A stretch of 64,000 nt of DNA. Source: Rhizobium lentis (GTDB lineage: Bacteria > Pseudomonadota > Alphaproteobacteria > Rhizobiales > Rhizobiaceae). Below, piece after piece: positions 3,372 to 46,362 of this stretch. Numbering within the stretch: position 1 is the stretch's first letter; every line of letters starts with the position of its first letter. Made by a program: the position numbers and the translations under genes. The stretch lies in contig NZ_CP071456.1 in the NCBI RefSeq assembly GCF_017352135.1, forward strand, positions 1 through 64,000. Reading direction: 5' to 3'. Under the pieces are notes generated by a model, which did not search any database, was not told the DNA's origin, and saw only the letters and a list, made by a program, of their open reading frames with translations.

Positions 3372-3565
3372 ACTTGCTGCCGGATACGATGACTGGCGCC
3401 GTGCCGCGGACGTGCGTGTTGGCGGCCGGCGCGGTGAGCCCAGGACCGTCTTGTGCAAACCCGAAAAAAGCGGTTAGCTGCATTCTTGGGGGCACTTTTC
3501 AAGCAAAGTCAGACGAGCTCAGGCGTTAGATGCGCTGAGAGGTGTCCGCATTCGAGGGAAGTCTC

Positions 3566-5476
3566 GTGCGCTGGTCCAAACCGCTCAGAGTGCATCTCGG
3601 CGTCCTGGTCGTCGCATCGCTGCTTTGCACGTCGATGCCGATTATCTGGATGGCGTTCAGGCAGGGAAGCAATGCTGCCGTGAGTGCCGGCGCGCAGCAC
3701 ATGCGCGAGATGAGCCTGCGGCTGATCGAGGGATATCGCCACACTCTGGAGGGAGGCTATGAGGCGGTCGCGCTGGCATCCACCCTCCCGCAGCTCGTTT
3801 CGCCGCCGCCTCAGGATATCAAGGCAAAACAGGAACTCTTTCTCGAAGTTCTGCGAAACGTGCCCGAGGCAACGAGCATCTATACCGGATACCCTGACGG
3901 CTCGTACCTGCAGGTCATCAACGCTGGAAGGAGGGATGTCCGCCAGATCCTCGCGGCGCCTGACGAAGCGGCTTTCGCGATCAGAACGATTGCCGGGCGG
4001 CAAAGCGCGAACGTCGTATCGACGCTTGGCTTTCTCGACAGCAAGGCGAGACCGATCGGCGAGCGGGACGTCGACGATGGGTCTTTCGATCCGCGGCAAC
4101 GCCCCTGGTATCAATTGGTCGTTCAGGACGGCGCCCCGGTCTCCGTCGGCCCCTATGTGACCGGAACGCTCAAAGTGCCGACGCTGACGATCGCGGCGCC
4201 GATGAAGGACGATGGGCGGGTGGTCGTCGGCATCAACGTTCACCTGCAGACTATCGGCCGCCTGCTGGATGCACAGGGCATTTCGCCGCATGCCCGAGCC
4301 TATGTCATCGACGGGAGCGGCAGTCTCGTTGCTCATTCCAACCCAGACATCATGCGCAGGATCATCGCAATATGGTCGAGAACCTCAGGCGCCTTCGCCA
4401 TAACGGCAAACGCTTTCGATACCAGTCTCGAAACGATTGCCCGGCTGCGGCAGGATCCTGCCTTCGCAAACGGCGGCCTGGCGCGGATCGAACTTGATGG
4501 TGCAAGCTATCTCGTGCAGATTGCCCCGGTCAGCGTGTCCGGCCTGTTCCGGCGAAGCACGGCCGCAATCGTCGTGCCGCTCGACGACCTCGTCGCCGAG
4601 GCCAACCGGCTGCTCGTGCGCAATCTCCTGATTGCCGGCATCCTGTTGATCGCGGGTGTTGCGGCATCGGTGGTCCTGTCGCGCATGGTCAGCCGCTCTC
4701 TGTACCGCCTCGCCGACGAGGCGCGCATGATTGGCGATCTCGAGGTCAGCGAGAAGGCCCTGTCGCACTCCTGGATAACGGAAATCAACACACTGGCGAA
4801 AGCCCTCTCGGCAAGCCGTCACGCCATCGGCCAGTTTGCCCTCTATGTTCCACGCGAAGTCGTCCGCCGCATCATCAGCCCTGAAGGGCGAGCGGTCGTC
4901 AAGGCGAAGCGGCAGGATGTGACCGCGCTGTTCACCGATATCAGAGACTTCACGACCATATCCGAGCTCAATTCACCCGAGGACGTGGTCGATACGCTGT
5001 CGGCCTATTTCGAGCTGCTGAACACCATCGCCGAGCGCCATGGCGGGACAGTCGTTCAATATCTCGGGGACTCCATTTTCGTCATGTGGAATGCCCCTGT
5101 TCAAGATGGCCGGCATGTCGAACACGGCTGCCGATGCGCGCTGGCGATGAAAGCGGCGATCGACGAACTCAACAGCGAAAACAGAGTCCATGGCCGCCCC
5201 GAACTCTTCACCCGGTTTGGCCTCCATACGGGACCCGCCGTCGTCGGCAGTTTCGGAGCGATCTCGCGCCAGCAATACACAGCCATGGGCGATACGATCA
5301 ACGTCGCTTCCCGGCTGGAAGGATTGAACAGGCAATATGGTACCTCGATCCTTGTGAGCGCCGCCGTCCATAACGCCGTCGGCGATCGCTTCCAGTTTCG
5401 GCCGCTTGGTCTGGTGCAGGTGAAGGGACGGGCTGAAAAGGTTGATCTATGGGAGCTTGTTGGGGAGCGTGTCTAG
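3566..5476 (+). CDS. Membrane class III cyclase with periplasmic dCache-type sensor
   Basis: A two-transmembrane receptor cyclase of about 636 residues. TM1 lies near residues 8-30 and TM2 near 350-370. The region between them is dCache-like and includes the signature FDPRQRPWYQ, typical of ligand-binding Cache sensors. A linker leads to the cyclase domain with metal Asp D458 (FTDIRDFT) and D502 (QYLGDS), and N579 and R583 in GDTINVASR. The base-selecting lysine is replaced by Gln (Q498), with Thr at 572, so nucleotide preference is uncertain. An in-frame GTG at 3542 exists, but the GAGGGA box at 3554-3559 fits GTG 3566 better. The stop lies inside the end of a transposase remnant on the other strand. 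Confidence 0.88.
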   Translation: MRWSKPLRVHLGVLVVASLLCTSMPIIWMAFRQGSNAAVSAGAQHMREMSLRLIEGYRHTLEGGYEAVALASTLPQLVSPPPQDIKAKQELFLEVLRNVPEATSIYTGYPDGSYLQVINAGRRDVRQILAAPDEAAFAIRTIAGRQSANVVSTLGFLDSKARPIGERDVDDGSFDPRQRPWYQLVVQDGAPVSVGPYVTGTLKVPTLTIAAPMKDDGRVVVGINVHLQTIGRLLDAQGISPHARAYVIDGSGSLVAHSNPDIMRRIIAIWSRTSGAFAITANAFDTSLETIARLRQDPAFANGGLARIELDGASYLVQIAPVSVSGLFRRSTAAIVVPLDDLVAEANRLLVRNLLIAGILLIAGVAASVVLSRMVSRSLYRLADEARMIGDLEVSEKALSHSWITEINTLAKALSASRHAIGQFALYVPREVVRRIISPEGRAVVKAKRQDVTALFTDIRDFTTISELNSPEDVVDTLSAYFELLNTIAERHGGTVVQYLGDSIFVMWNAPVQDGRHVEHGCRCALAMKAAIDELNSENRVHGRPELFTRFGLHTGPAVVGSFGAISRQQYTAMGDTINVASRLEGLNRQYGTSILVSAAVHNAVGDRFQFRPLGLVQVKGRAEKVDLWELVGERV

Positions 5477-10474: not shown

Positions 10475-10922
10475 GGCGGGATCTTTCGAATGAAACAGGA
10501 AAAGCTGATCTAATGCATGATCGCGGGGAATTAAACCCGGCTCCTCTTCTCCCCGGGGTACTGCCCCACCCTCCGTCGTCCTCGGGCTTGACCGAGGACC
10601 CACGCCCGCCTGCACGAGGTGTGGCCGAAATGACTCGCCCGGCTCCTTTGCTGCAACTTCGGCGCACAAAAGAATCCCGCTCCCATTGTCTCGCATCTGC
10701 AGCATCCCTATCTGAGTTTGATATTGAACCATCGAGAAAGGACTTCCCGTCCGATCCCCTTCCGGGGAACTGAAGGGCGCCGCTGCCGGGCTTTCGGCAG
10801 ATCGTTGACACTATTTTACCGCTCGTACATCCTGATTTCCTTGTGACCTGCGCATGAAAATGCGCCGGCCGAGGGATTTTTGGCTCTTGGGGATGGCGTG
10901 CCTTATGAGGATCATACCGAGA
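10475..10922. repeat. Gene-poor stretch with a rhizobial-type palindrome
   Basis: About 450 bases between divergent genes with no convincing gene. At 10578-10599 there is a perfect 8-bp hairpin (GTCCTCGG, 6-base loop, CCGAGGAC) inside a CGTCGTCCTCGGGCTTGAC context. It resembles the hairpins at 26468-26536, so it probably belongs to the same dispersed intergenic repeat family. The promoters of the flanking genes should also lie here, but none could be called. Confidence 0.5.
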
Positions 10923-12266
10923 ATGAGCACGATCGAATCCAGCGTCTCCTCCATTCTTTTGGACCGGGTCGCCGAATGGCTGACGCATTCTTCACTGGCC
11001 GGCGACGACCTCGAAAATATCGTGCGCGGCTTCTGCGAGAGGCTGGCCTCCGCCGGCCTGCCGATTGCCCGCGTGCATCTGACCTTTTCGATGCTGCATC
11101 CGCTCTACGACGCCTTGAGCTTCACCTGGCGGCGGGCCAGCGGCGTCACAATCGAGGGCTTCCGCATGCCGGCCGGGCAGAAGCCGGACCGTTTCCTGCA
11201 GAGCCCCTATTATTACCTGCTCGACAACAACCTGCAGCACATCCGCCGCCGGCTGATGCAGGAAGGCCCGGCCGAATTCCCGATCTTCGAGGATCTGCGC
11301 AAGGACCGGATGACCGATTACCTTGCCTTCGTGCAGCCCTTCGGCGACGATTCGGTGCAGGGCATGATGGGCTCCTGGTCGACCGACCACCATGACGGCT
11401 TTTCCGACGACATGATCGACGCGCTGCTCAGGATGCAGAACCATTTGGCGGTCGCCGCCAAGATGGCGGTGCTCGGCAAGCTCGCCAACAACATGCTGAC
11501 CACCTATCTTGGCGGCGACGCCGGCAAGCGGGTGCTGAACGGCCAGATCCGCCGCGGCGACGGCGAGACGATCCGTGCTGCGCTCGTCATGGGCGACATG
11601 CGCGAATCCACCATGTATGCCGAAAAGGAAGGCCGCCAGGCCTATATCGACACGCTGAACCAGTTCTTCGACGCGATCGCCGCGCCTTTCAACCGCAATG
11701 GCGGCGAGATCCTGAGCTTCCTCGGCGACGGCTTCCTCGCCGTCTACCCCTGCGGACGCCACAAGGATCCGTCGAAAATTGCCTGCGAGGCGGCACTTTC
11801 GGCCGTCCACCAGGCGCAGGCGCGGGTCGCCGAACTCAACCGGGACCGCGAGGAGAAGGGCCTGTCCAGGATCGGCTACGGCATCGGCCTGCATGTCGGC
11901 AACGTCATGTTCGGCAATGTCGGCCTCAAGGACCGGCTGACCTTCTCCGCCTTCGGATCGGCGGTCAACGAGGTGCAGCGGCTGCAAATCCTGACCAAGA
12001 AATACGGCCGCGAGGTCGTCGCCAGCCAGGCCTTCGCCGGCTATTGCGGCGGCGAATGGACGACGCTCGGCGAGGAGAAGCTGCGCGGTATCCGCCAGAA
12101 GGTGACGGTGCTGCAGCCGCGCGCCCCGGCCCCCGATATCCATGTCGACGAACACTTCCGGGAGGCCGTGCAGAACGGGCTTTCCGAAGCCGAACAGGTC
12201 ATTCTCCTGCACCGTGACGCCAAGAAGCAGGTCAAGCGCACCAGCATGGAGAAATTCATCCAGTAA
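10923..12266 (+). CDS. Soluble class III nucleotidyl cyclase with atypical specificity residues
   Basis: About 447 residues without membrane segments. Residues about 20-190 resemble a GAF-like sensor region. The C-terminal cyclase domain has metal Asp D225 (VMGDMRES) and D269 (FLGDGFLAVY), and transition-state N349 and R353 (GSAVNEVQR). The base-selecting pair is S265 and S342 rather than Lys with Asp/Thr, and the usual GD before xVN is GS. Substrate is therefore uncertain: it could be an unusual cyclase or one with low activity. The frame extends to an ATG at 10854; 10923 is chosen because the protein there starts MSTIESSVSS with a GAGG box a little upstream. About 40 residues after the cyclase core form a basic tail. 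Confidence 0.85.
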   Translation: MSTIESSVSSILLDRVAEWLTHSSLAGDDLENIVRGFCERLASAGLPIARVHLTFSMLHPLYDALSFTWRRASGVTIEGFRMPAGQKPDRFLQSPYYYLLDNNLQHIRRRLMQEGPAEFPIFEDLRKDRMTDYLAFVQPFGDDSVQGMMGSWSTDHHDGFSDDMIDALLRMQNHLAVAAKMAVLGKLANNMLTTYLGGDAGKRVLNGQIRRGDGETIRAALVMGDMRESTMYAEKEGRQAYIDTLNQFFDAIAAPFNRNGGEILSFLGDGFLAVYPCGRHKDPSKIACEAALSAVHQAQARVAELNRDREEKGLSRIGYGIGLHVGNVMFGNVGLKDRLTFSAFGSAVNEVQRLQILTKKYGREVVASQAFAGYCGGEWTTLGEEKLRGIRQKVTVLQPRAPAPDIHVDEHFREAVQNGLSEAEQVILLHRDAKKQVKRTSMEKFIQ

Positions 12267-12421: not shown

Positions 12422-14310
<1,889 letters not shown>

Positions 14311-14311
<1 letters not shown>

Positions 14312-16218
14312 TGGTGACGCGTCGCACATTCCTTGGCGGTCTCGTCGGCGCTGCGATCGCGCCGGCGGTGCTTCGCGCCGAACAGGCCGTCGAACCGGAA
14401 TTCCTGAAGGAGCGGCTGGCTGCCGGCAGCCTGCCGCCGATGGCCGAACGCATTCCGCTGCAGCCGCGCATCGTCAACCTGAAGGAGATGGGGCTGCAGC
14501 CCGGCACCTATGGCGGCACTGTGCGCACCATCATCGGCAGCCAGCGCGACATCCGCTTCATGACGATCTACGGCTATGCCCGCCTGGTCGGCTACGACAA
14601 GCACCTGCAGTTCCAGCCGGATATCCTGGCCGCCTTCCACTCCGAGGACGATACGGTCTTCACCTTCACGCTGCGCGATGGCCACAAATGGTCCGACGGG
14701 GCGCCGTTCACCGCCGACGATTTCCGCTACTGGTGGGAAGACGTCATCCTGAACGACAAGCTGACGCCCGGCGGCGGCGCGCTGGAGCTTCGCCCGCACG
14801 GCAGCCTTCCGCGCTTCGAGGTGCTCGATCCGCTAACGGTGCGCTATAGCTGGGAAAAGCCCAACCCGATGTTCCTGCCGACCTTGGCAGGCCCCCTGCC
14901 GCTCGTCATCGTCGGGCCGGCGCACTATCTCAAGCAATTCCACAAGAAGTTCCAGCCCGACGAGGCGAAGATGGAACAGATGATGAAGGCCAACCGCGTC
15001 AAGAAGTGGCAGGACCTGCACATCAAGATGGCGCGTTCCTACCGGCCGGAAAATCCGAACCTGCCGACGCTCGATCCCTGGCGCAACACGACGCCGCTGC
15101 CGGCCGAGCAGTTCGTCTTCGAGCGCAATCCGTTCTTCCACCGCGTCGACGAGACCGGGAGGCAGCTCCCCTATCTCGACCGCTTCGTCCTCAACGTCTC
15201 TTCCTCGTCGATCATCGCCGCCAAGGCCGGAGCCGGCGAAGCCGACCTGCAGGCGACCGGCATCGATTTCAACGATTACACCTTCCTGAAGGAGGCCGAG
15301 AAGCGCTTTCCGGTGAAGGTCGACCTCTGGAAGCTCGCGCGCGGCTCGCGCATCACGCTGCTGCCGAACCTCAACTGCGCCGACGAGGTGTGGCGCGGCC
15401 TGTTCCGCGACGTGCGTCTGCGCCGGGCGCTGTCGCTGGCGATCAACCGGCACGAGATCAACATGGTCGCCTTTTACGGCCTGGGAACGCCAAGCGCCGA
15501 CACCGTTCTGCCCGACAGCCCGCTCTTCAAGCCGGACTATGCCAAGGCCTTCGTCGATTTCGATCCCGACCAGGCCAACCGGCTGCTCGACGAACTCGGC
15601 CTGACCAGACGCGACGACGACGGCGTCCGGCTGCTGCCCGACGGTCGGCGCGCCGAGATCACTGTCGAGACCGCCGGCGAGAGCAATCTCGATACCGACG
15701 TGCTGGAGCTGGTGCACGATCACTGGGCCAATATCGGCCTGGCGCTTTTCACCCGCACCTCGCAGCGCGACGTCTTCCGCAACCGCGCCATGAGCGGTAC
15801 GATCATGATGTCGATATGGTACGGGCTCGACAACGGTGTGCCGACGGCCGACATGTCGCCCTCGGGGCTGGCGCCGACGCTCGACGATCAGCTGCAATGG
15901 CCGCTCTGGGGCATGCATTATCTCTCCGCCGGCCAGGAGGGCGCCGCCCCCGACCTGCCGGAAGCAGCCGAACTGGTCAACCTGCTGGCCCAGTGGGGCT
16001 CGGCGGCGAAGTTCGAGGAGCGCGAGCTGATCTGGCACAAGATGCTGTCGCTCTATACCCAGCAGGTCTTTTCGATCGGCCTCATCAACAGCACACCGCA
16101 GCCGATCCTGCGCGCCGCCAAGCTCCAGAATCTGCCGGAGAGAGCGCTCTACGGTTTCGATCCCACCTCCTATCTCGGCGTCTACATGCCGGATGCATTC
16201 TGGTACAAGGAGGCCTGA
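14311..16218 (+). CDS. ABC importer substrate-binding protein, family 5, Tat-exported
   Basis: 635 residues of the peptide/nickel-binding family 5. The N-terminus is a twin-arginine signal (TRRTFLGGLVGAAIAPAVLRA), so export is probably folded, via Tat. Family features include the early conserved block WSDGAPFTADDFRYWWED and the late TxxxNxxR-like core RRALSLAINRHEIN. The start overlaps the stop of the ATPase gene (TAATG). It is followed four bases later by the permease gene. Ligand cannot be told from sequence; YejA-like proteins bind peptides such as microcin C, but other members bind opines or sugars. Confidence 0.9.
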
Positions 16219-16221
16219 GGC

Positions 16222-17220
16222 GTGCTCAAATACATTCTCTGGCGCATTGCCGCCATGGTGCCGACGCTCTTCGTCATTTCGGCGCTTGTTTTCACCATCA
16301 TCGAGCTGCCGCCGGGCGATTTCTTCGAGAGCCAGATCGCCGAACTGCGTGCCTCCGGCGAAACCGCCAATCTCCAGGAAATCGAGGAGATGCGCCAGCA
16401 ATACGGCTTCGACAAGCCGGCGATCGTGCGCTATTTCTACTGGGTCGGCGGCATGCTGCACGGCGATTTCGGCTATTCCTTCGAATACCAGCTGCCGGTT
16501 TCCGAGGTCGTCGGCGAACGGCTGTGGCTGACGATCCTCGTCTCCTTCACGACCATCCTGCTCACTTGGCTGATCGCCTTTCCGATCGGCATCTATTCGG
16601 CCACCCACCAGTATAGCTGGGGTGACTACGGCCTGACCTTCCTCGGCCTGCTCGGCATCGCCATTCCGAATTTCATGCTGGCGCTGATCCTGATGTATTT
16701 CGCCAATATCTGGTTCGGCATCTCGATCGGCCATCTGATGGACCAGCAATATATCTCGGCGCCGATGAGCTGGGCTAAGGCGCGGTCGATCCTCTCGCAT
16801 CTCTGGATCCCGGTCATCATCGTCGGCACGGCGGGCACGGCCGGCATGATCCGGCGGCTGCGCGCCAACCTGCTCGACGAGATGCAGAAGCAATATGTCG
16901 TCACCGCGCGCGCCAAGGGCCTGCCGCCGCTGAGGGCGCTGGTCAAATATCCGCTGCGGATGGCGCTCAACTTCTTCATCGCCGATATCGGCTCGATCCT
17001 GCCGTCGATCATCTCGGGCGCCGAGATCGTCGCGATTGTGCTGTCGCTCGAGACGACCGGACCGATGTTGATCAAGGCGCTGCAGAGCCAGGATATGTAT
17101 CTGGCCGGCTCGTTCCTGATGTTCCTCGCCTTCTTGAACGTCGTCGGCGTGCTGATCTCCGACATTGCCCTCGGCTTCCTCGATCCCCGCATCCGTCTGC
17201 AAGGCAGGAGCACCAAATAA
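16222..17220 (+). CDS. ABC importer permease, DppB type
   Basis: 332 residues, six predicted membrane segments, GTG start three bases after the binding-protein stop. The N-terminal block ends with the family pattern LPPGDFFESQIAEL; the cytoplasmic EAA loop, where the ATPase docks, is seen near VVTARAKGLPPLRALVKYPL. It pairs with the DppC-type permease that follows, whose ATG overlaps its stop codon (TAATG). Confidence 0.92.
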   Translation: MLKYILWRIAAMVPTLFVISALVFTIIELPPGDFFESQIAELRASGETANLQEIEEMRQQYGFDKPAIVRYFYWVGGMLHGDFGYSFEYQLPVSEVVGERLWLTILVSFTTILLTWLIAFPIGIYSATHQYSWGDYGLTFLGLLGIAIPNFMLALILMYFANIWFGISIGHLMDQQYISAPMSWAKARSILSHLWIPVIIVGTAGTAGMIRRLRANLLDEMQKQYVVTARAKGLPPLRALVKYPLRMALNFFIADIGSILPSIISGAEIVAIVLSLETTGPMLIKALQSQDMYLAGSFLMFLAFLNVVGVLISDIALGFLDPRIRLQGRSTK

Positions 17221-18392
17221 TGTCGCCCCTTCCCGCACCCGGCGCACCGCTGCCCCATTACGTCTCCACCGCGCCCTTCGATCCGCACGCGGCCCAGAGC
17301 ATGACGGCGGCGCAATCGCGCATCCACCTCGCCTCGCAGAAGCGGCTGATGTGGTGGAAGTTCAAGCAGCATAGGCTGGCCCTGGTCTCCGGCATCTTCC
17401 TCGCCGCCATCTACCTGATGATCTTGATCGTCGAGTTCCTGGCGCCTTACGGCCTGCACACGCGCAACGTCGATTTCATCCACGCGCCGCCGCAGCGCGT
17501 CCACTTCTTCGACAAGGGCGAGTTCGTCGGTCCCTTCGTCTACGGCCGCAGCATGACGCTCGATATCGACACGCTGCACCGCGTCTATACCGACAGGCCG
17601 AACGACGTGCAGCCGATCCGCTTCTTCTGCCGCGGCGACGCTTACAAGTTCTGGGGCCTCGTCGCCTCGAACTATCATCTCGTCTGCCCGGCCATCGGCG
17701 GCCAGATGTTCCTTCTCGGCACCGACCGGCTCGGCCGCGACGTGCTGTCGCGCATTCTCTACGGCGCACGGATCTCGCTGACGATCGGCCTGATCGGCAT
17801 CGCCATCAGCTTCGTGCTCGGCATCGTCATCGGCGGCCTCGCCGGTTACTGGGGCGGCATTTTCGATCTCGTCGTCCAGCGCCTCATCGAGGTGCTGCAA
17901 TCGCTGCCGAGCCTGCCCTTGTGGATGGCGCTGGCCGCCATCATGCCGGTGACATGGAGCCCGATCGTCATCTATTTCGGCATTACCGTCATCCTCGGCA
18001 TCATCGACTGGACCGGGCTGGCGCGTGCCGTGCGCTCCAAGCTGCTCGCGTTGCGCGAAGAGGATTACGTGCAGGCCGCACAGTTGATGGGCGCCAGCAC
18101 GCCGCGCATCATCGGCCGCCATCTCGTGCCGGGCTTCATGTCGCACCTCATCGCCTCGGCGACGATTTCGATCCCCGGCATGATCCTCGGCGAGACCGCG
18201 CTCTCCTTCCTCGGCCTCGGCCTGCGTCCGCCGATCACCAGCTGGGGCATTCTGCTGACGGAAGCGAAAAGCGTCAGCGTCATCGCCTTCTATCCTTGGC
18301 TGCTCTTTCCGATCATTCCTGTTGTTCTTGTCATTTTGGCGTTCAACTTTCTGGGAGACGGCTTGCGTGATGCGGCAGATCCCTACAAATAG
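17220..18392 (+). CDS. ABC importer permease, DppC type
   Basis: 390 residues. After a long N-terminal part with one membrane segment (LVSGIFLAAIYLMILIVEF) and a periplasmic stretch of about 120 residues, the core permease contains GTDRLGRDVLSRILYGARIS, typical of DppC/OppC, and an EAA-like loop EEDYVQAAQLMGASTPRI. The periplasmic insert between TM1 and the core is longer than in E. coli DppC, as in YejE-like permeases. It is the last gene of the importer, and about 97 bases separate it from the glycosyltransferase cluster, so readthrough is possible. Confidence 0.92.
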   Translation: MSPLPAPGAPLPHYVSTAPFDPHAAQSMTAAQSRIHLASQKRLMWWKFKQHRLALVSGIFLAAIYLMILIVEFLAPYGLHTRNVDFIHAPPQRVHFFDKGEFVGPFVYGRSMTLDIDTLHRVYTDRPNDVQPIRFFCRGDAYKFWGLVASNYHLVCPAIGGQMFLLGTDRLGRDVLSRILYGARISLTIGLIGIAISFVLGIVIGGLAGYWGGIFDLVVQRLIEVLQSLPSLPLWMALAAIMPVTWSPIVIYFGITVILGIIDWTGLARAVRSKLLALREEDYVQAAQLMGASTPRIIGRHLVPGFMSHLIASATISIPGMILGETALSFLGLGLRPPITSWGILLTEAKSVSVIAFYPWLLFPIIPVVLVILAFNFLGDGLRDAADPYK

Positions 18393-18488
18393 CAGGAAGC
18401 TCGGCGGCGCCTTACGGCACCGCCCCCGCCGCGTGGCCTCCGGACGGTGGGGGTGCTAAATATGTTGCTCACCCCAGAGGGAATGCCC

Positions 18489-19697
18489 ATGTCCAGACGT
18501 CTCGAAGATGCACGCATCCTCATGTACAGTCACGACACCTTCGGCCTCGGCCACCTCAGGCGCTGTCGCGCCATCGCCCATGCGCTGGTCGAGGATTATC
18601 GCGGCCTCAACATCCTGATCATTTCGGGTGCGACGATCGCCGGCGCCTTCGACTACCGCGCCCGCGTCGACTTCGTGAAGATCCCGAGCGTCATCAAGCT
18701 GCGCAACGGGGAATATACGTCGCTCGCCAGCCATATCGACCTGCACGAGACGTTGAAGATGCGCGAATCGAGCATTCGCCACACAGCCGAAACCTTCCAG
18801 CCCGATATCTTCATCGTCGACAAGGAGCCGATGGGGCTGAAGGGCGAGGTCGAGGATACGCTCGCCTATCTCAAGGCCCGCGGCACCGTGCTGGTGCTCG
18901 GCCTGCGCGAGATCATGGATGCACCGCACCTGCTCGAGGCCGAGTGGAAGAAAAACAGCATCATGCAGAAGATCGATCAATATTACGACAGCGTCTGGGT
19001 CTACGGACCGCCTGACTTCTACGATCCGCTGATCGGTCTCGACGTGCCGGCGAGCCTGCGCCGGAAGATGGATTTCGTCGGCTTCCTGCAACGCAGCGTC
19101 TCCAAGGGCAAGAGCTCGATCAACGCCCGCAAGGACAACTACCTGCTCGTCACCACGGGCGGCGGCGGCGACGGCTCCGATCTCGTCCACGACGTGATGA
19201 ACGCCTACGAGGCCGATCCGACCTTGACGCAGAAGGCGCTGGTCGTTCTCGGCCCCTATATGCCGGCGGCCGAACGCGCCAAGCTGGTGCAGAAGGGCGA
19301 AGCCATCCCCTATATCGAAGTGATCGAGTTTGACAACCACATGGAAGAGCTGATCGCCGGCGCCACCGGCGTCGTCGCCATGGGCGGCTACAACACCTAT
19401 TGCGAAATCCTTTCCTTCGACAAGCCGGCGCTCATCGTGCCGCGCGTCAAGCCGCGCGAGGAACAGCTGCTGCGCGCCCAGCGCGCCAGCGAGCTCGGCC
19501 TCGTCGACATGCTGCTGCCGGACCAGTCGGTCGATCCCACTGTTATGGCAGAGGCGCTGAAGCGCCTGCCTTCCCGTCTCCCGCCGTCGAAAAGCGGCAG
19601 CAATATGCATCTCGAAGGGCTGGACCACATCTCGCAGACCATCGGCCGCTGGCTCGACGGCCGCGGCAGCCATCTTTCCCTCGTCGGCGCGGAATAG
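18489..19697 (+). CDS. MurG/GT28-like glycosyltransferase A
   Basis: About 402 residues of GT-B fold. The N-terminal glycine motif DTFGLGHLRRCRAIAHAL replaces the GGTGGH loop of MurG, and the C-terminal half carries VVAMGGYNTYCEILSFDKPA, like the GGxxT/xE donor-binding part of GT28 proteins. No signal peptide; it should act at the cytosolic membrane face. The frame opens at 18447, but AGAGGGA sits six bases before ATG 18489, which gives MSRRLEDARI. It is a paralogue of the protein at 20951-22096, and the GT4 gene between them starts nine bases downstream. Acceptor and donor are unknown. Confidence 0.85.
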   Translation: MSRRLEDARILMYSHDTFGLGHLRRCRAIAHALVEDYRGLNILIISGATIAGAFDYRARVDFVKIPSVIKLRNGEYTSLASHIDLHETLKMRESSIRHTAETFQPDIFIVDKEPMGLKGEVEDTLAYLKARGTVLVLGLREIMDAPHLLEAEWKKNSIMQKIDQYYDSVWVYGPPDFYDPLIGLDVPASLRRKMDFVGFLQRSVSKGKSSINARKDNYLLVTTGGGGDGSDLVHDVMNAYEADPTLTQKALVVLGPYMPAAERAKLVQKGEAIPYIEVIEFDNHMEELIAGATGVVAMGGYNTYCEILSFDKPALIVPRVKPREEQLLRAQRASELGLVDMLLPDQSVDPTVMAEALKRLPSRLPPSKSGSNMHLEGLDHISQTIGRWLDGRGSHLSLVGAE

Positions 19698-19706
19698 GGC
19701 ACAGCC

Positions 19707-20954
19707 TTGCCGCCACGCCGCAAGATCCTCGTCGTGCTGAAAGGCTATCCCCGCCTTTCGGAGACCTTCATCGCCCAGGAGCTGCTCGGCCTCGAAAGGG
19801 CCGGCTTCGATTTGACCCTGATTTCGATGCGCCGGCCGACCGACAAGAAGCGCCATCCCGTGCATGACGAGATCAAGGCGCGGGTCGTCTACCTGCCGGA
19901 ATATCTGCACGAGGAGCCGATCCGCGTGCTGAAGGGCCTGGTCGCTGGCTTTTCGAAACCCGGCTTCAAGCCGCTGATCAAACGCTTCCTCGCCGACCTG
20001 CCACGCGACCTCTCCCGCAACCGTTTCCGTCGCCTCGGCCAGGCGCTGGTGCTGGCGCGCGAATGGCCTGATGGCGGTGAATGGCTGCATGCCCATTTCA
20101 TCCATACACCGGCCTCGGTGACGGAATATACAAGCATCCTGACGGGCACGCCCTGGACCTGTTCGGCGCATGCCAAGGACATATGGACCTCGCCCGACTG
20201 GGAATTGAAAGAGAAGCTGAAGAGCGCCCGCTGGACCGTCACCTGTACAAGGACCGGCTACGAGCACATGCGGACGCTGACATCCCGCAAGGAGGCCGTG
20301 CATCTCAGCTATCACGGTCTCGATCTCGCCCGTTTCGGCCATTTTTCCGGCGAGCGGTCGAGCCGCACCGGCAGCGACCCGGCTGATCCGGTTTTCATCC
20401 TCAGCGTCGGCCGCGCGGTGGAGAAGAAGGGCTACGACGTCCTGCTGCGGGCGCTGGCGCTGCTGCCCGCCGACCTCCACTGGCGCATGGAACATATCGG
20501 CGGCGGCAATGGGCTGGCGAAGCTGAAGGCGCTCGCCGTCGAGCTCGGCCTCACCTCCCGCATCGTCTGGAAGGGCGCCATGGCGCAGGAAGAGGTGCTC
20601 GACCATTACCGACGCGCCGATCTCTTTGCGCTGGCTTGCCGCATCGCCGCCAACGGCGACCGGGACGGCCTGCCGAACGTGTTGGTCGAGGCCTCGAGCC
20701 AGCGGCTCGTCTGCGTCTCGACCGCCGTCTCCGGGGTACCGGAACTCTTGGAGAACGGTGAAAACGGCCTCGTCGTACCGCCGGAAGAACCGGCGCAGCT
20801 CGCCCGGGCGCTGGAAGCGGCGATCCGCGATCCGGCGCTGCGCAAGCGGCTCGGCGATGCCGCCGAAGGCCAAGTGCGCGAGAATTTCGATTATCACTCC
20901 AGCATCAGACAGCTCACAGGCCTGTTCGAGGCCGAATGGCAGAAGGTCTCATGA
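19707..20954 (+). CDS. Family 4 glycosyltransferase (WcaL/ExoL-like)
   Basis: 415 residues, TTG start nine bases after the previous gene. The N-terminus ILVVLKGYPRLSETFIAQEL is the hallmark of retaining GT4 enzymes such as WcaL/AmsK. The C-terminal donor domain includes LSVGRAVEKKGYDVLLRAL and the acidic nucleotide-sugar motif around GLPNVLVEASSQ (EX7E region). The stop overlaps the next start by four bases (ATGA). It is the middle gene of a three-glycosyltransferase unit, presumably adding one sugar of a surface oligosaccharide. Confidence 0.9.
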   Translation: MPPRRKILVVLKGYPRLSETFIAQELLGLERAGFDLTLISMRRPTDKKRHPVHDEIKARVVYLPEYLHEEPIRVLKGLVAGFSKPGFKPLIKRFLADLPRDLSRNRFRRLGQALVLAREWPDGGEWLHAHFIHTPASVTEYTSILTGTPWTCSAHAKDIWTSPDWELKEKLKSARWTVTCTRTGYEHMRTLTSRKEAVHLSYHGLDLARFGHFSGERSSRTGSDPADPVFILSVGRAVEKKGYDVLLRALALLPADLHWRMEHIGGGNGLAKLKALAVELGLTSRIVWKGAMAQEEVLDHYRRADLFALACRIAANGDRDGLPNVLVEASSQRLVCVSTAVSGVPELLENGENGLVVPPEEPAQLARALEAAIRDPALRKRLGDAAEGQVRENFDYHSSIRQLTGLFEAEWQKVS

Positions 20955-22096
20955 CGGCACCGCGCATCTTCTTCTACGTCCAGCACCTGCTCGGCATCGG
21001 CCACATCGCCCGCGCCAGCCGCATCGCCAATGCCCTGGTCCAGGACGGTTTCGACGTCACCGTCGTCACCGGCGGCCTGCCGGTGCCGGGCTTTCCCGGC
21101 GAAGGCGTCAGGACCGTGGTCTTGCCGGCGGTCGTCGCCAGCAATGCCGGTTTCTCCGGCCTTGCCGATGCCGATGGCCGGCCGGCCGGCGCGGATTTTC
21201 TCGCTGCCCGCCGCGACCTGCTGCTCGACGCCTTCCATGCCTCAAGGCCCGATGTCGTCATCATCGAGGCCTTCCCCTTCGGCCGGCGGCAGATGCGCTT
21301 CGAACTCCTGCCCCTGCTTGCGGCGATCGAAGAGGCCGACCCGCGGCCAAAACTCCTAAGCTCGGTGCGCGACATCCTGCAGGAAAACCGCAAGGCTGGC
21401 CGCGACGCGGAGACGGTCAAGCTTGTCAGGGATCATTTCGACGCCGTGCTCGTTCATGGCGATCCCGACTTCGTCAGGCTCGAGGACACTTTTCCGCTGA
21501 CCCCTGAGATCGCCGACAGGATGCGTTATACCGGCCTCGTCGCGCCGCCGCCGGCGCCGGAACCTGCCGAGATCTTCGACATTATCGCATCGGCCGGTGG
21601 CGGCGCGGTCGGCGCCGAACTGATCGGCGCGGCGAAAGAGGCGGCAGCGTTGCTGCCGGATCATCTGCGCTGGCTGCTAATTGCAGGCCCCAACCTGCCG
21701 GAAGCCGATTTCGTCAAGCTGTCGCAGGACGCCGTCGCCAATGTGACGCTGGTGCGCTTCCGTAAGGATTTTCCGTCGCTGCTACGCCGCGCCAAAGTCT
21801 CGATCTCGCAGGCGGGCTACAACACGGTCGGCGACCTCTTGCGCAGCGAATGCCGGGCGATCCTCATCCCCTTCGTCGCCGGCGGCGAGACTGAGCAGAC
21901 GGTGCGGGCCGAACGGCTGCAGGCGCTTGATCTTGCCGAGATCCTGCCGGAGCAGGGGCTGACGGCGGACCATGTAAAAGAGGCCGTCGAAAGGGCGCTT
22001 GCGGTGCCCAGGCAGAGGCCGGTTTCGCTCGATCTCGAGGGGGCGGAGAAAACGGCCGCCATCATTCGCTCGATGATTGCCGAATCGCTCGCCTAA
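20951..22096 (+). CDS. MurG/GT28-like glycosyltransferase B
   Basis: About 381 residues, paralogous to the product of 18489-19697. It begins APRIFFYVQHLLGIGHIARA, the same GxGHxxR loop, and ends with the donor motif KVSISQAGYNTVGDLLRSE. The upstream ATG at 20936 lies inside the preceding gene; 20951 is chosen because ATGA overlaps the preceding stop and AGAAGG sits just upstream. Two GT28-like enzymes flanking a GT4 enzyme, all translationally coupled, suggest a fixed short oligosaccharide. Last of the coupled set; a 180-base gap follows. Confidence 0.85.
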   Translation: MTAPRIFFYVQHLLGIGHIARASRIANALVQDGFDVTVVTGGLPVPGFPGEGVRTVVLPAVVASNAGFSGLADADGRPAGADFLAARRDLLLDAFHASRPDVVIIEAFPFGRRQMRFELLPLLAAIEEADPRPKLLSSVRDILQENRKAGRDAETVKLVRDHFDAVLVHGDPDFVRLEDTFPLTPEIADRMRYTGLVAPPPAPEPAEIFDIIASAGGGAVGAELIGAAKEAAALLPDHLRWLLIAGPNLPEADFVKLSQDAVANVTLVRFRKDFPSLLRRAKVSISQAGYNTVGDLLRSECRAILIPFVAGGETEQTVRAERLQALDLAEILPEQGLTADHVKEAVERALAVPRQRPVSLDLEGAEKTAAIIRSMIAESLA

Positions 22097-22276: not shown

Positions 22277-24991
22277 ATGGAAAAGAGCCTCGCCCGCTAC
22301 ATCTGGAAAAACACGCGGCTGCAGCAGCTGTGGATCCTGGCTGTCGTTGCTGCCTCGATGGTGCCCTATTTCCTGTCCTTCGATCTGCCGAAGCAGATCG
22401 TCAACGGACCGATCCAGGGCGGCGGGTTCGAAGGCCCCGGCGCAACCCAGACGTTCATGCACATCGCCTACGACATTCCGCTGATCGGCCATGTCGAATT
22501 CTTCAAGGGCGTGCAGCTCGACCGCTTCCAGATGCTGATGGCTCTCAGCCTGGTGTTCCTGGCGCTGGTGGTGCTGAACGGCCTCTTCAAATTCTACATC
22601 AACACCTATAAGGGCCGGCTCGGCGAGCGCATGCTGCGGCGCATCCGCTTCGAGCTGATCGACCGGGTGCTGCGGTTTCCGCCCGCCCATTTCAAGCGGG
22701 TGAAATCGGCCGAAATCGCCACCATGATCAAGGACGAGGTGGAGCCGATGGGCGGCTTCACCGGCGACGCCTTCGTCTCGCCTGCCCTTCTCGGAGGCCA
22801 GGCGATCACCGCGCTCGCCTTCATTATCGTCCAGAATTTCTGGCTCGGCATGATCGCCGCCGCCATTGTCGGGGTGCAGGCGGTCGTCATTCCCCGCATG
22901 CGCAAGCGCCTTCTAGAGCTCGGCCGCCAGCGGCAGCTGACGGCGCGCGAGCTTTCCGGCCGCGTCGGCGAAATCGTCGAGGGCATCGGCACGATCCACG
23001 GCAACGATACCTCCAACCTCGAACGCGCCGACATCGCCTGGCGGCTCGGCCGGATCTTCTCGATCCGCTACGACCTCTACCAGTGGAAGTTCCTGGTGAA
23101 GTTCATCAACAACTTCCTTGCCCAGGTCACGCCCTTCCTGTTCTATGCGATCGGCGGCTATCTCGCCTTGCAGGGCCGGCTCGACATCGGCCAGCTCGTC
23201 GCCGTCATTTCAGCCTACAAGGATCTTCCCGGGCCGCTGAAGGAGCTGATCGACTGGGACCAGATGCGCCAGGACGTGCAGGTGAAATACCAGCAGGTTT
23301 ACGAACAGTTCAATGTCGAGCCGCTGATCGACAGCCGCATCCAGGAGCTGGCGACCGCTCCTGTGGGCGCACTGACGAGCGCGCTCGTCGTCAGCAATCT
23401 CTCGCTTTCCGACGACAGCGGCGCCCGTCTCGTCGACCACGTCTCGGTCGAAATCAAGCCGAACGAGACGGTGGCGATCGTCGGCCCGAACGGCAGCGGC
23501 GCGGAAGCCTTTGCCGAGGCGCTCGGCCGCATGATCTGGCCGGACTCCGGCCGCATCACCATCGACGGCCGCGATCTCCTGGAGCTGCCGGAATCGATCA
23601 CCGGCCGGCGGATCTCCTATGCCTCGGCCGACACCTTCTTCTTCCACGGCTCGCTCGCCGGCAACCTGCTCTACGGGCTCAAGCATGCGCCGATGATCGA
23701 CGCCGTCTATGACGAGAAGGAGGCGCAGGAATATAAGTGGCATTCCGCCGAGGCGGTGAAGGCCGGCAATCCGACGCTCGACCTCAACAGCGACTGGGTC
23801 GATTATCAGGCGGCGGGCGCCAACGGGCCTGAAGATCTCCTGAAAGCCATCCGGCCGGTGCTCGACGCCGTACTGATCTCGCAGGACATCCTCGATCTGG
23901 CGCTGCGCTCGACCGTCAATACCAGCGTGCATGTCGCGGTCAGCGACCATGTCGTGGCGCTGCGCGCCTCACTGAGAGACCGGCTGCGCGAGGAGGGGCT
24001 CGACGGCATCGTCGTGCCGTTCGATTTCGACGCCTACAACGCCCAGGCGACGGTCGGCGAGAACCTGCTCTTCGGCACGATGAAGCGGCCGCTGATGACA
24101 AACCGCAGGTTGGCCGCGCATCCATATTTCCAGCAGCTCTTCCGCGAGACCGGCCTGAGCACCGATCTCTATGCCATGGGCCTTGAGATCGCCGAAAACG
24201 CTGTGGAACTCTTCCACGACCTGCCGCCGGACCATCCCTTCTTCCTGCAGCTGACCTTCATGACAGCGGACGACATTCCGACCTATCAGGCACTGCTGCA
24301 GAAGCTGCAAAGCCGTCGCTTCGAGGACGCGACGCCCGAGGAACGGTCGGCCATCATCCGCTTAAGCTTCGCCTATATCGAGCCACGCCACCGTTTCGGC
24401 CTGCTGAGCGACGAGCTGATGGCCAAGATCGTCAGCGCCCGCAAGCAGTTCCATGCACATATTCCCGCCGATCTCGCCGAACTGATCGAGCGTTACGACG
24501 CCGAGCGCTTCACGCCGTCAGCCAGCCTCATGGACAATGTGCTCTTCGGCCGTATCGCCTATCAGCAGGCCGACGCCTCCGACCGCATCCGCGCCATCAT
24601 GGGCGAACTCTTCGATGCGCTCGACCTTTATGACGACGTCCTGTCGATCGGCCTCGAATTCGACGTCGGCTCCGGCGGCAAGCGGCTGACCATGGTGCAG
24701 CGCCAGAAGCTGAACCTTGCTCGCGCGCTCCTGAAGCGCTCGGACTATTTCATCTTCAACCGGCCGCTGTCGGCGCTCGATCAGCGCGTCCAGGACCAGA
24801 TCACCCGCAACATCATCGAAGACCTGCATAAGGAGGGCGAGCGCCCGGCGATCATCTGGGTGCTTTCGAATGCCAGGCTTGCCGAGATGTTCGACCGAAT
24901 CCTGCTTTTCGATCGAGGCGGATTGGCGGAAGCCGGAAACTATCCGGAACTTTCGGAGAAAAACGGTATGTTCAAGGAACTGTTATCGTAA
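22277..24991 (+). CDS. Pseudo-ABC exporter: ABC membrane domain with degenerate, expanded ATPase domain
   Basis: 904 residues. Residues 1-330 are an ABC-exporter membrane domain with six predicted helices. The ATPase domain, from about residue 370, lacks every catalytic residue: Walker A is GPNGSGAEA (403-411; K replaced by A409), the Q-loop Gln is A451 (ISYASAD), Walker B reads YFIFNRPLSALD with N828/R829 in place of Asp-Glu, the switch His is S864 (WVLSNA), and the signature is GSGGKRLT at 798-805. Walker A and signature lie about 390 residues apart instead of about 100. The insert repeats an xxNLLFG-type motif three times (459-467, 592-600, 750-758). ATP hydrolysis is very unlikely. It may be a scaffold, channel or regulator; the frame is intact, so it is maintained. 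It lies between glycosyltransferases and a cNMP-binding gene. Confidence 0.85.
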   Translation: MEKSLARYIWKNTRLQQLWILAVVAASMVPYFLSFDLPKQIVNGPIQGGGFEGPGATQTFMHIAYDIPLIGHVEFFKGVQLDRFQMLMALSLVFLALVVLNGLFKFYINTYKGRLGERMLRRIRFELIDRVLRFPPAHFKRVKSAEIATMIKDEVEPMGGFTGDAFVSPALLGGQAITALAFIIVQNFWLGMIAAAIVGVQAVVIPRMRKRLLELGRQRQLTARELSGRVGEIVEGIGTIHGNDTSNLERADIAWRLGRIFSIRYDLYQWKFLVKFINNFLAQVTPFLFYAIGGYLALQGRLDIGQLVAVISAYKDLPGPLKELIDWDQMRQDVQVKYQQVYEQFNVEPLIDSRIQELATAPVGALTSALVVSNLSLSDDSGARLVDHVSVEIKPNETVAIVGPNGSGAEAFAEALGRMIWPDSGRITIDGRDLLELPESITGRRISYASADTFFFHGSLAGNLLYGLKHAPMIDAVYDEKEAQEYKWHSAEAVKAGNPTLDLNSDWVDYQAAGANGPEDLLKAIRPVLDAVLISQDILDLALRSTVNTSVHVAVSDHVVALRASLRDRLREEGLDGIVVPFDFDAYNAQATVGENLLFGTMKRPLMTNRRLAAHPYFQQLFRETGLSTDLYAMGLEIAENAVELFHDLPPDHPFFLQLTFMTADDIPTYQALLQKLQSRRFEDATPEERSAIIRLSFAYIEPRHRFGLLSDELMAKIVSARKQFHAHIPADLAELIERYDAERFTPSASLMDNVLFGRIAYQQADASDRIRAIMGELFDALDLYDDVLSIGLEFDVGSGGKRLTMVQRQKLNLARALLKRSDYFIFNRPLSALDQRVQDQITRNIIEDLHKEGERPAIIWVLSNARLAEMFDRILLFDRGGLAEAGNYPELSEKNGMFKELLS

Positions 24992-25567: not shown

Positions 25568-25858
25568 TCAGGATTGCGGCGGCCATTTCTGCGCGCCATG
25601 GAGAAGGCGCAGTATTTCCACCTTCTTTGCCTTTCTGTCGATGCGATAGATCAGCAGAAACGGGGTGCGTGGAATGACCAGTTCCCGCGTTCCCTTGCGA
25701 CGGCCGCCTCGTCCTGCTTCGGGATGATCGGCGAGCATTTTGGCCTGATGTCGAATGACATCATCCAATGCGATTGCGGCTTTCGGATTTTGAGCAAAGA
25801 TATGCCGGATCTGAGCTTCCCGATCCAGAAGCGCCTGCTGCAGCCATTTGACGATCAA
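25568..25858 (-). CDS. RelE/ParE family toxin
   Basis: A 96-residue toxin-like protein. It contains the ParE-like basic segment HPEAGRGGRRKGTRELVIP and the C-terminal core FLLIYRIDRKAKKVEILRLLHGAQ. ParE proteins poison gyrase and RelE proteins cut mRNA; the arrangement LHGAQxWP fits the ParE/RelE-fold group found beside PaaA-like antitoxins. Its start overlaps the stop of the upstream antitoxin by four bases, so the pair is coupled. It converges on the cNMP-binding gene, nine bases apart. Confidence 0.85.
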   Translation of the reverse strand: MIVKWLQQALLDREAQIRHIFAQNPKAAIALDDVIRHQAKMLADHPEAGRGGRRKGTRELVIPRTPFLLIYRIDRKAKKVEILRLLHGAQKWPPQS

Positions 25859-26316
25859 GCCTTATCCTCGGATTCCAGCCGCGCGAGCAGTTCGGCTCGA
25901 AGCTTATCCATTTGCTCTTCGGCATCCTCCGCACTGATCCAGACTGCATTCGGATCATCGGCTTCCCGGATCGCTTCCTCGACCTGTTCGCGGAACCATT
26001 TGTCGTATTCCGCCGCCTCATGGGTGCGACGCAGAGCTGCAGCCCGATCCGGCCGCGATACCGTCTCCGGCGCGTAATCGGCCGCATCAACATCGAATTG
26101 CGAGATGCCGACATCCTTGAGATAAGAAACCAAGGTATCCATGCGCTTGAACACACGCACCTGCCGGCTGCGTTGAGCAGCAAGCGGGCGCTCCGCCTTG
26201 CCGTAGCGGATAACGACGGACCAGCCGCCGGTTTTACCGACGACATGAGCAGCATCGACCGCCCCGGCTTCGACAAGGCGGGACAGGGTCGAATGATCGA
26301 TGGTTTCTGCGGTCAT
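25855..26316 (-). CDS. Antitoxin with putative DNA-binding N-domain and PaaA-like C-domain
   Basis: A 153-residue protein, longer than typical antitoxins. The N-terminal half (GGWSVVIRYGKAERPLAAQ, RSRQVRVFKRMDTLVSYL) is basic and is probably the DNA-binding part. The C-terminal half (AALRRTHEAAEYDKWFREQV, then EAEEQ-like acidic helices) resembles PaaA-type toxin-binding sequences. It is first in the operon and overlaps the toxin gene by four bases. Two near-identical 16-bp repeats upstream suggest autorepression. Confidence 0.78.
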   Translation of the reverse strand: MTAETIDHSTLSRLVEAGAVDAAHVVGKTGGWSVVIRYGKAERPLAAQRSRQVRVFKRMDTLVSYLKDVGISQFDVDAADYAPETVSRPDRAAALRRTHEAAEYDKWFREQVEEAIREADDPNAVWISAEDAEEQMDKLRAELLARLESEDKA

Positions 26317-44007: not shown

Positions 44008-44237
44008 GGGTCTCTCCGTAACCGGCGCCTCTCGGGCCTTGCTGCTGCAACCCACCCGCGCGCCGATAGTTCCCGAGAGGGATGCGAGAGGGCCTCACGT
44101 AAAAATAACCAGTTGGTGAATTCTTTACTTGAACCCCTAGTTGGAATCGGCAAAAGTGACGGTGCTATCAATCCCTTCATGGATTTGCCGTCTTTTCGGG
44201 CCAGCGTCCGAGCACCACATCTATTGGAAAAAATACC

Positions 44238-46091: not shown

Positions 46092-46119
46092 TGATTAGGC
46101 GGCGGCGATTCCTCTTGCT

Positions 46120-46258
46120 CCCTCATTCCTGTGCTCGTCACAGGAATCCAGTGCGCCCAAGTCCTTGGGCGCGGGAGACTTTTTCAACCGCCGCATTGAG
46201 TCATTCACCGCGCCGACGCGCGGTGGCTGGATTCCTGTGACGAGCACAGGAATGAGGG
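46120..46258. repeat. RIME1-like intergenic mosaic element
   Basis: Two perfect 32-bp inverted arms (46120-46151 and 46227-46258) each contain an internal palindrome ATTCCTGTG-5-CACAGGAAT. Between them lie two more hairpins: GCGCCCAA/TTGGGCGC (46153-46172) and ACCGCGC/GCGCGGT (46207-46224). Such nested palindromes fit the rhizobial RIME elements. It lies between two genes that should be one transporter operon. Confidence 0.75.
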
Positions 46259-46362
46259 GAGGAGAGGTTATTCCTCGACAACCACTTCGCTGCGGATCGA
46301 GGCTATCCGCGGCAAACAGTCGGCTAAATTAGAACAAAAGCCTTGGAATTAGGGAGACGACG

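Follow-up and report, generated by a model that had tools for sequence, protein, structure and literature searches.

A family of ABC-exporter-like proteins with degenerate ATP sites, found beside a cyclic-nucleotide-binding protein and glycosyltransferases in Rhizobium lentis and other Alphaproteobacteria

Gene content and the pABC reading frame

The stretch analysed here, referred to as the window, comprises 64,000 nucleotides of Rhizobium lentis DNA (RefSeq assembly GCF_017352135.1, contig NZ_CP071456.1, positions 1 to 64,000), and its central subject is pABC, a gene encoding a pseudo-ABC exporter, that is, a protein with the fold of an ATP-binding cassette (ABC) exporter in which the ATP-site motifs have been lost. 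Upstream of pABC lie a cyclase-type gene, an oligopeptide-type importer and three glycosyltransferase genes (GT_A, GT_B and GT_C), and immediately downstream lies a small cyclic-nucleotide-binding protein, CNB (Table 1). Judged from sequence comparisons, pABC is the Rhizobium member of an alphaproteobacterial pseudo-ABC exporter family, whose ABC-exporter ancestry is clear and whose assignment as an ATP-driven exporter fails.

Table 1. Features of the pABC locus and its surroundings (window coordinates; aa, amino-acid residues of pABC)
Feature	Position	Strand	Basis
Fourth glycosyltransferase, GT_D-type, cut by contig start	3..605	-	phmmer E 2.4e-40 to GT_D of locus L181
Adenylate/guanylate cyclase-type protein	10854..12266	+	Pfam Guanylate_cyc 27.8 bits vs cut-off 21.9
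Oligopeptide-type ABC importer (ATPase, binding protein, two permeases)	12422..18392	+	Pfam, orthologous-locus annotation
GT_A, GT28-type C-terminal domain	18447..19697	+	Pfam Glyco_tran_28_C 38.2 bits
GT_B, GT4-type glycosyltransferase	19707..20954	+	Pfam Glycos_transf_1 110.9 bits
GT_C, GT28-type C-terminal domain	20936..22096	+	Pfam Glyco_tran_28_C 51 bits
pABC (pseudo-ABC exporter), 904 aa	22277..24991	+	Intact reading frame; Pfam ABC_membrane + ABC_tran; 190 aligned homologues
ABC-exporter transmembrane domain, aa 1-345	22277..23311	+	Pfam, block conservation; best conserved at long distance
Dead Walker A, aa 403-410 GPNGSGAE, Lys->Ala409, Ser/Thr->Glu410	23483..23506	+	
Interrupted copy A of the helical segment, aa 440-550, SLAGNLLYG ... 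helix	23594..23926	+	hhalign
Q-loop position, Ala451 (Gln lost)	23627..23629	+	
Extra region separating Q-loop from signature, aa 481-740	23717..24496	+	No Pfam match at E 1
Helical segment copy B, aa 553-637, FDFDAYNAQATVGENLLFG ...	23933..24187	+	hhalign + model
Helical segment copy C, aa 712-794, YDAERFTPSASLMDNVLFG ..., runs into signature	24410..24658	+	hhalign + model
Dead signature, aa 804-808, LTMVQ vs LSGGQ	24686..24700	+	
Dead Walker B, aa 824-829 YFIFNR, Asp-Glu->Asn-Arg (N828-R829)	24746..24763	+	
Switch position, Ser864 (His lost)	24866..24868	+	
CNB, single-domain cyclic-nucleotide-binding protein, 155 aa	25091..25558	+	Pfam cNMP_binding 70 bits

The pABC frame runs uninterrupted from its ATG to its stop. 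Residues 87-312 match Pfam ABC_membrane (60.9 bits), and residues 387-480 match the first part only of ABC_tran (51 bits; profile positions 2-80 of 137), giving the order of an ABC_membrane transmembrane domain followed by an ABC-type nucleotide-binding domain (NBD) fold. Within that fold, GAE stands in place of the GK[ST] of Walker A, the LSGGQ signature is altered at T805, M806 and V807, and the Walker B Asp, catalytic Glu, switch His and Q-loop Gln are all absent, while a D-loop-like SALD is retained. A preliminary description, made from the DNA alone, had claimed an intact frame and losses at A409, A451, N828-R829 and S864; translation of the open reading frame (ORF) and the family alignment agree on every one of these points and add two further losses, the Walker A Ser/Thr (E410) and the signature (LTMVQ).

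Control exporters carry the motifs that pABC lacks. With a simple pattern, Walker A and the signature were found in 6/6 exporter ORFs of the same genome (L003-L008); L006 gave no match to the Walker B pattern and L008 none to the His pattern. All 30 exporters of a second set, chosen for their similarity to L003 among 36 other genomes of which 30 contributed, and therefore canonical by design, carry the GK[ST], SGG-type signature, DE and His patterns scored, which are loose. Misalignment of the motifs is an unlikely cause of the losses, since canonical controls show them.

Loss of the ATP site across the homologue family

The losses extend throughout the family. Removal of three short pieces and of near-duplicates from 214 matching ORFs left 190 long rows for the alignment; these rows reach down to about 28% identity, include many closely related sequences (an effective number of 72 at 62% identity), may count a few genes twice that were fetched with different flanks, and comprise one locus frameshifted ahead of the C-terminal motifs (L092) and one without the last motif columns (L121). 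The five named residues occur together in none of the 190 rows, and no homologue with a full motif set was found among them, the kind of finding that the preliminary description had named as its own refutation. Counted by residue, 116 rows keep none of the five, 24 keep one, 23 two, 21 three and 6 four; counted by whole motif, again out of five, 149 keep none, 27 one, 13 two and a single row three. Exact LSGGQ is absent from all 190, GK[ST] occurs in 8 and the complete Asp-Glu pair of Walker B likewise in 8. Single residues persist more widely, namely K409 in 49/190, Gln at 451 in 17/190, E829 in 44/190 and His at 864 in 23/190.

In a quick tree of the membrane domain (101 family rows and 7 canonical ones, with 35 of 105 inner branches weakly supported), the canonical rows, some of them on long branches, form one side of a branch with an SH-like approximate likelihood ratio test (SH-aLRT) value of 100. 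On this family tree no fewer than 18 changes are needed at Lys409 and no fewer than 21 at Glu829, which indicates that the remaining ATP residues drift while the protein persists.

Selection and conservation along the protein

Purifying selection acts on the whole protein. Across 19 close pairs (median synonymous divergence, dS, 0.40), the median ratio of nonsynonymous to synonymous divergence (dN/dS) of pABC is 0.051, and by part it is 0.042 for the membrane domain (residues 1-345), 0.102 for the N-terminal ATPase part (366-480), 0.059 for the extra region (481-740) and 0.030 for the C-terminal ATPase part (741-904); the last value is the lowest, which argues that the ATPase-like part matters too. 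Family-wide losses, low dN/dS and intact frames together uphold the proposal of the preliminary description that this is a maintained pseudo-ABC protein rather than one in decay. As separate observations, the pABC frame is broken in L092 (R. aethiopicum SEMIA 4074) and carries an in-frame TAG in L216 (genome G270), both of which could be sequencing errors.

At longer distance the gradient takes another form. Distant homologues have, in 75/75 cases, a membrane domain that is better conserved than their two ATPase parts combined, with median identities of 51.1% (residues 84-345) versus 38.5% for the ATPase-like part and 34.9% for the extra region. Canonical exporters show the inverse in 30/30 cases (membrane domain 22.1%, ATPase 58.3%), in a comparison that mixes orthologues with paralogues and exaggerates the divergence of canonical membrane domains. 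Block conservation within the pABC family is 0.53 for the block holding Walker A and up to 0.72 in the membrane domain.

A multiplied helical segment in the ATPase domain

The extra region that separates the Q-loop from the signature is shared family-wide, with a gap fraction below 0.2 in every alignment block. Profile comparison with hhalign relates three segments in and around it, copies B and C over 83 columns (E 2.5e-18), copies A and B at E 6.5e-7 and copies A and C at E 1.2e-6, whereas among non-overlapping control regions the pair T1/T2 reached E 0.0076 and the others 0.07 or worse; such pairwise E-values are relative only, and the scores of the pairs B2/C and C/N2 are self-matches of overlapping windows and carry no meaning. 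Three further pairs, R2/X1, R3/X1 and X1/X2, scored between E 2e-5 and 3e-4, and window X1 is read as covering the helical stretch of copy A together with the beginning of copy B. Copies B and C also share their order of helices and strands in the structure model. By these comparisons, the addition of some 260 residues is best described as a multiplied helical segment placed between Q-loop and signature.

A fragment model of the ATPase-like part with the extra region is better than the full-length model and still modest, with a predicted local distance difference test score (pLDDT) of 67 and a predicted template modelling score (pTM) of 0.48. In Foldseek searches, ABC proteins with low TM-scores stand among the matches listed, and with VIA-align the ATPase-like part fits many NBDs, while the extra region, modelled together with it, matched no single family.

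A cyclic-nucleotide-binding partner

CNB begins 99 nucleotides (nt) downstream of pABC. It carries a Crp-type phosphate-binding cassette (GE...SRTA) with the conserved Glu and Arg, Glu84 being present in 191 and Arg93 in 199 of 201 aligned copies, many of them rhizobial and some from genomes counted more than once; in a cassette of this type, these two residues belong to the cyclic nucleoside monophosphate (cNMP) pocket.

The two genes are closely linked. All 78 named loci compared have a CNB frame no more than 500 nt away from pABC; they are the loci longer than 8 kb among the best 80 of 316 kept from named species genomes, and belong to Rhizobium, Neorhizobium, Phyllobacterium and unassigned Rhizobiales. 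A second set of 48 distant loci was hand-picked from relatives and class samples with flanks of about 6 kb and is limited by contig ends, which makes all neighbour counts from it lower bounds; here 36 loci have CNB beside pABC, no more than 500 nt away in 35 of them and 559 nt away in the other, and 8 carry it as a fusion. In all, pABC-CNB fusions were found at 13 distinct loci in 11 genomes, one of them (L175) seen in part.

The nearby cyclase-type gene, which opens the codirectional run in Rhizobium, encodes a predicted class III cyclase catalytic domain scoring above the Pfam gathering threshold, and its orthologues are annotated as cyclases in R. johnstonii 3841 and R. etli CIAT 652; a cyclase-type gene occurs in 6 of the 48 distant loci, within the stretch covered. 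Further cyclase-like ORFs lie at 781-2490 and 3539-5473, making three on the plus strand within about 12 kb of the contig start.

Glycosyltransferases linked to pABC

GT_A and GT_B correspond to genes named redA and redB in R. etli CIAT 652, and the GT_B and GT_C frames overlap by 19 nt. All three glycosyltransferases are present in 72 of the 78 named rhizobial loci. At the 48 distant loci, a GT_B-like gene was found in 28, GT_A in 27, GT_C in 24 and the full set in 23, together with a histidine phosphatase in 20, a conserved protein X in 20, a fourth glycosyltransferase in 12 and the ATPase of an oligopeptide-type importer in 11. The genes run codirectionally in Rhizobium and are often divergent in other lineages, which suggests that the linkage has been kept or rebuilt through rearrangement.

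Co-occurrence extends to whole genomes. Among 385 genomes of the class, pABC was detected in 129, GT_A in 127, GT_C in 127 and all three in 121; GT_A and GT_C are each found in 123 genomes with pABC, with 6 and 4 discordant genomes (Fisher p 2e-87, phi 0.94), figures that concern these three genes and ignore shared ancestry. Co-occurrence also holds where the genes lie far apart or on separate contigs, for example in genomes G101, G327 and G361. The tie to neighbouring glycosyltransferases that the preliminary description had proposed is borne out by this association and by the shared neighbourhood; the gating of a glycan channel and the scaffold role that it offered as possibilities stay at the level of hypotheses.

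Searches of PDB sequences with GT_A and GT_C returned no match at E 0.001, and protein X gave no Pfam or NCBIfam match at 0.001; from its motifs, X presumably resembles a deacetylase. The oligopeptide-type importer sits between the cyclase-type gene and the glycosyltransferases. At the distant loci L208 and L214, pABC and CNB are accompanied by such an importer as well as by four glycosyltransferases and the phosphatase, an arrangement partly as in Rhizobium, which suggests that the importer is part of the system in some lineages.

Distribution

The gene is present in all 37 sampled genomes of the genus, that of the window organism included, with a full-length uninterrupted match in 36 and a gene split over two contigs in the other (G003). 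At E 1e-60, 45 of 61 genomes (60 sampled relatives and R. lentis itself) contain a match, and the 129 positive genomes of the class sample also include the latter. In a sample of the phylum, 27/398 genomes match, every one inside the same class; within the same bacterial family and outside the genus, 8 of these genomes match and at least 5 do not, and the gene is not universal in that family.

Among 72,556 plasmid records 261 match, 143 from Rhizobium and 80 from Sinorhizobium, with Ruegeria, Azospirillum, Sulfitobacter and Tritonibacter as further hosts. Carriage as phage cargo was considered and set aside, no match being found among 50,697 phage records at E 1e-20. Multiple copies occur in genomes G102, G214, G391 and G035, one of the G035 copies being a fragment. 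At locus L228 (5805-6782; genome G000, contig C2:501804-502781), a 326-residue frame matches the pABC membrane domain (E 1.6e-28) without an ATPase domain; it is preceded by a protein that looks CBS-like by eye, and 13 kb of surrounding sequence contain no second pABC match.

Relation to known systems

Among known systems, those closest to pABC are type I ABC exporters of the MsbA and ChvA/NdvA types (TIGR02203 and TIGR01192; PDB 8gk7 for MsbA and 7znu for NdvA), from which it differs in its degenerate ATP motifs, its approximately 260 additional residues and a membrane domain that is better conserved than the ATPase at long distance. Assignment as the MsbA lipid A flippase was rejected, with 181.5 bits for TIGR02203 against a cut-off of 602. 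In PMC10945364, SMb20813 is called an msbA homologue of S. meliloti; it is a possible counterpart of pABC.

Like the exporters with one degenerate site (TM287/288, TmrAB, CFTR and the MRPs), pABC has lost catalytic residues from an otherwise preserved NBD. Those proteins retain one canonical composite site, whereas pABC is a half-size exporter in which every possible site is degenerate in both halves. CFTR and SUR offer a possible analogy, without implying membership, as ABC folds that no longer act as ATP-driven pumps; they have become a channel and a regulator whose gating still depends on bound ATP, whereas the candidate gate of pABC is its CNB partner. CNB itself resembles Crp-like cyclic-nucleotide-binding proteins without a DNA-binding domain. 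It matches TIGR03896, the bacteriocin-type transport-associated cyclic-nucleotide-binding family, weakly (39.5 bits, below the cut-off of 161), and that family is associated with an active peptide exporter.

No description of the pABC family was found in titles and abstract openings of the open-access literature, a scope outside which most subscription papers fall. In plasmid records, family members are labelled ABC transporter transmembrane domain-containing protein or, often, ABC transporter ATP-binding protein, despite the missing ATP site.

Interpretation and alternative explanations

We favour, with a confidence somewhat short of even, an ATP-independent pseudo-exporter that would be set by its CNB subunit and would serve a surface-glycan or glycolipid pathway; this reading draws on the conservation of the membrane domain, on CNB as partner or tail and on the set of glycosyltransferases. 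A type I ABC exporter ancestor would have lost ATP hydrolysis, and the resulting lineage would have gained additional copies of the helical segment within its ATPase domain and acquired a CNB domain, as a partner protein or a fused tail. The present protein, probably a homodimer, would be the membrane part of a pathway whose enzymes are GT_A, GT_B and GT_C, joined in many genomes by GT_D, the histidine phosphatase and one more conserved protein. Its conformation would be set by the cNMP-bound state of CNB instead of by ATP, and in Rhizobium the nearby cyclase may supply the cNMP.

A more specific version, which we put forward tentatively and regard as rather doubtful, casts pABC as a cNMP-gated, ATP-free conduit or scramblase through which a glycan, possibly lipid-linked, would pass or be flipped, the cyclic nucleotide having replaced ATP as the controlling ligand in a class-wide family; in Rhizobium, the cyclase, the sensor, the membrane part and the glycosyltransferases would then be encoded together.

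Several observations weigh against a CNB-set, ATP-independent pseudo-exporter. Some family members keep part of the ATP site, most clearly L204 with three of the five motifs and the quarter or so of rows with K409, and partly motif-retaining members such as L204 could still bind nucleotide. Constraint between close pairs is strongest on the C-terminal ATPase-like part, above the membrane domain, and the control for the long-distance gradient is the mixed one noted above. The structure models are weak, the full-length model of pABC, built with 52 near relatives, reaching a pLDDT of 57 and a pTM of 0.34. With respect to CNB, the pocket is altered in some copies (Glu84 replaced by Asp in 7/201, by another residue or a gap in 3/201), four of the 48 distant loci (L207, L209, L211 and L212) have no CNB in the stretch covered, and CNB could act elsewhere than on pABC. 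As for the glycosyltransferases, GT_A falls below the threshold used in 6 of the 129 pABC genomes, and shared ancestry may contribute to the co-occurrence.

Among the alternatives, the one that survives best is a regulator or scaffold without transport, which we consider unlikely without being far-fetched: pABC would anchor the glycosyltransferases at the membrane and relay the cNMP state of CNB to them, a role that can be likened to that of the sulfonylurea receptor towards its channel. The dead ATPase, the strong constraint on the C-terminal ATPase-like part and the co-occurrence with GT_A and GT_C, which holds for unlinked genes too, fit such a role, for which the additional conserved helical copies could provide a docking surface. 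However, long-distance conservation is highest in the membrane domain, above what would be expected of an anchor, and five loci (L091 and L105-L108) have pABC and CNB and no glycosyltransferases in the stretch covered.

It is improbable that pABC still works in an ATP-dependent pump, either paired with a canonical half-exporter or holding ATP without hydrolysing it. Heterodimers with a degenerate site are well known (reviewed in PMC7756269), and the rows that keep K409 or E829 would suit an arrangement of this kind. Against this, both composite sites of such a heterodimer would contain one degenerate pABC half, from Walker A/B or from the signature; with neither the Walker half nor the signature half intact, an ATP site should not form with itself or with a partner. 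In addition, Lys409 drifts over the family tree, and clustering revealed no canonical half-exporter among the recurrent neighbours, no dedicated exporter search having been made.

An active ATPase employing unusual residues is very improbable: the fairly uniform acidic replacement of the Walker A Ser/Thr (163/190 rows) is what speaks for it, but no replacement set is evident around the former site, and the Walker A block is less conserved than the best blocks of the membrane domain. A decaying gene or sequencing artefact, to which the broken frame of L092 and the in-frame TAG of G270 might point, is refuted by the full-length matches throughout the genus, the intact frames and the low dN/dS.

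In most known ABC exporters with a dead site, one of the two sites is affected; here a whole family appears to lack a usable ATP site and yet is kept over long distances with a near-fixed set of partners. If the gating proposed for the CNB-set pseudo-exporter is true, the family would represent a natural experiment in swapping the control ligand of a transporter fold, would provide a defined target of cyclic-nucleotide signalling in rhizobia and other Alphaproteobacteria, and could lead to a surface glycan or glycolipid so far unrecognised. Should pABC be a mere scaffold, it is still the case that about one third of the sampled genomes of the class carry a member of this family without an ATP site.

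Further observations in the window

Scans for promoters and terminators gave results at chance level. Between CNB and a major facilitator superfamily (MFS) gene, a conserved hypothetical frame on the minus strand (25855-26316) is not found in many relatives, and its orthologue in R. johnstonii 3841 adjoins a RelE/ParE-type toxin gene. Farther downstream, positions 44160-48258 hold a tandem pair of full-length ABC exporter ORFs in which the Walker A and signature patterns are present.

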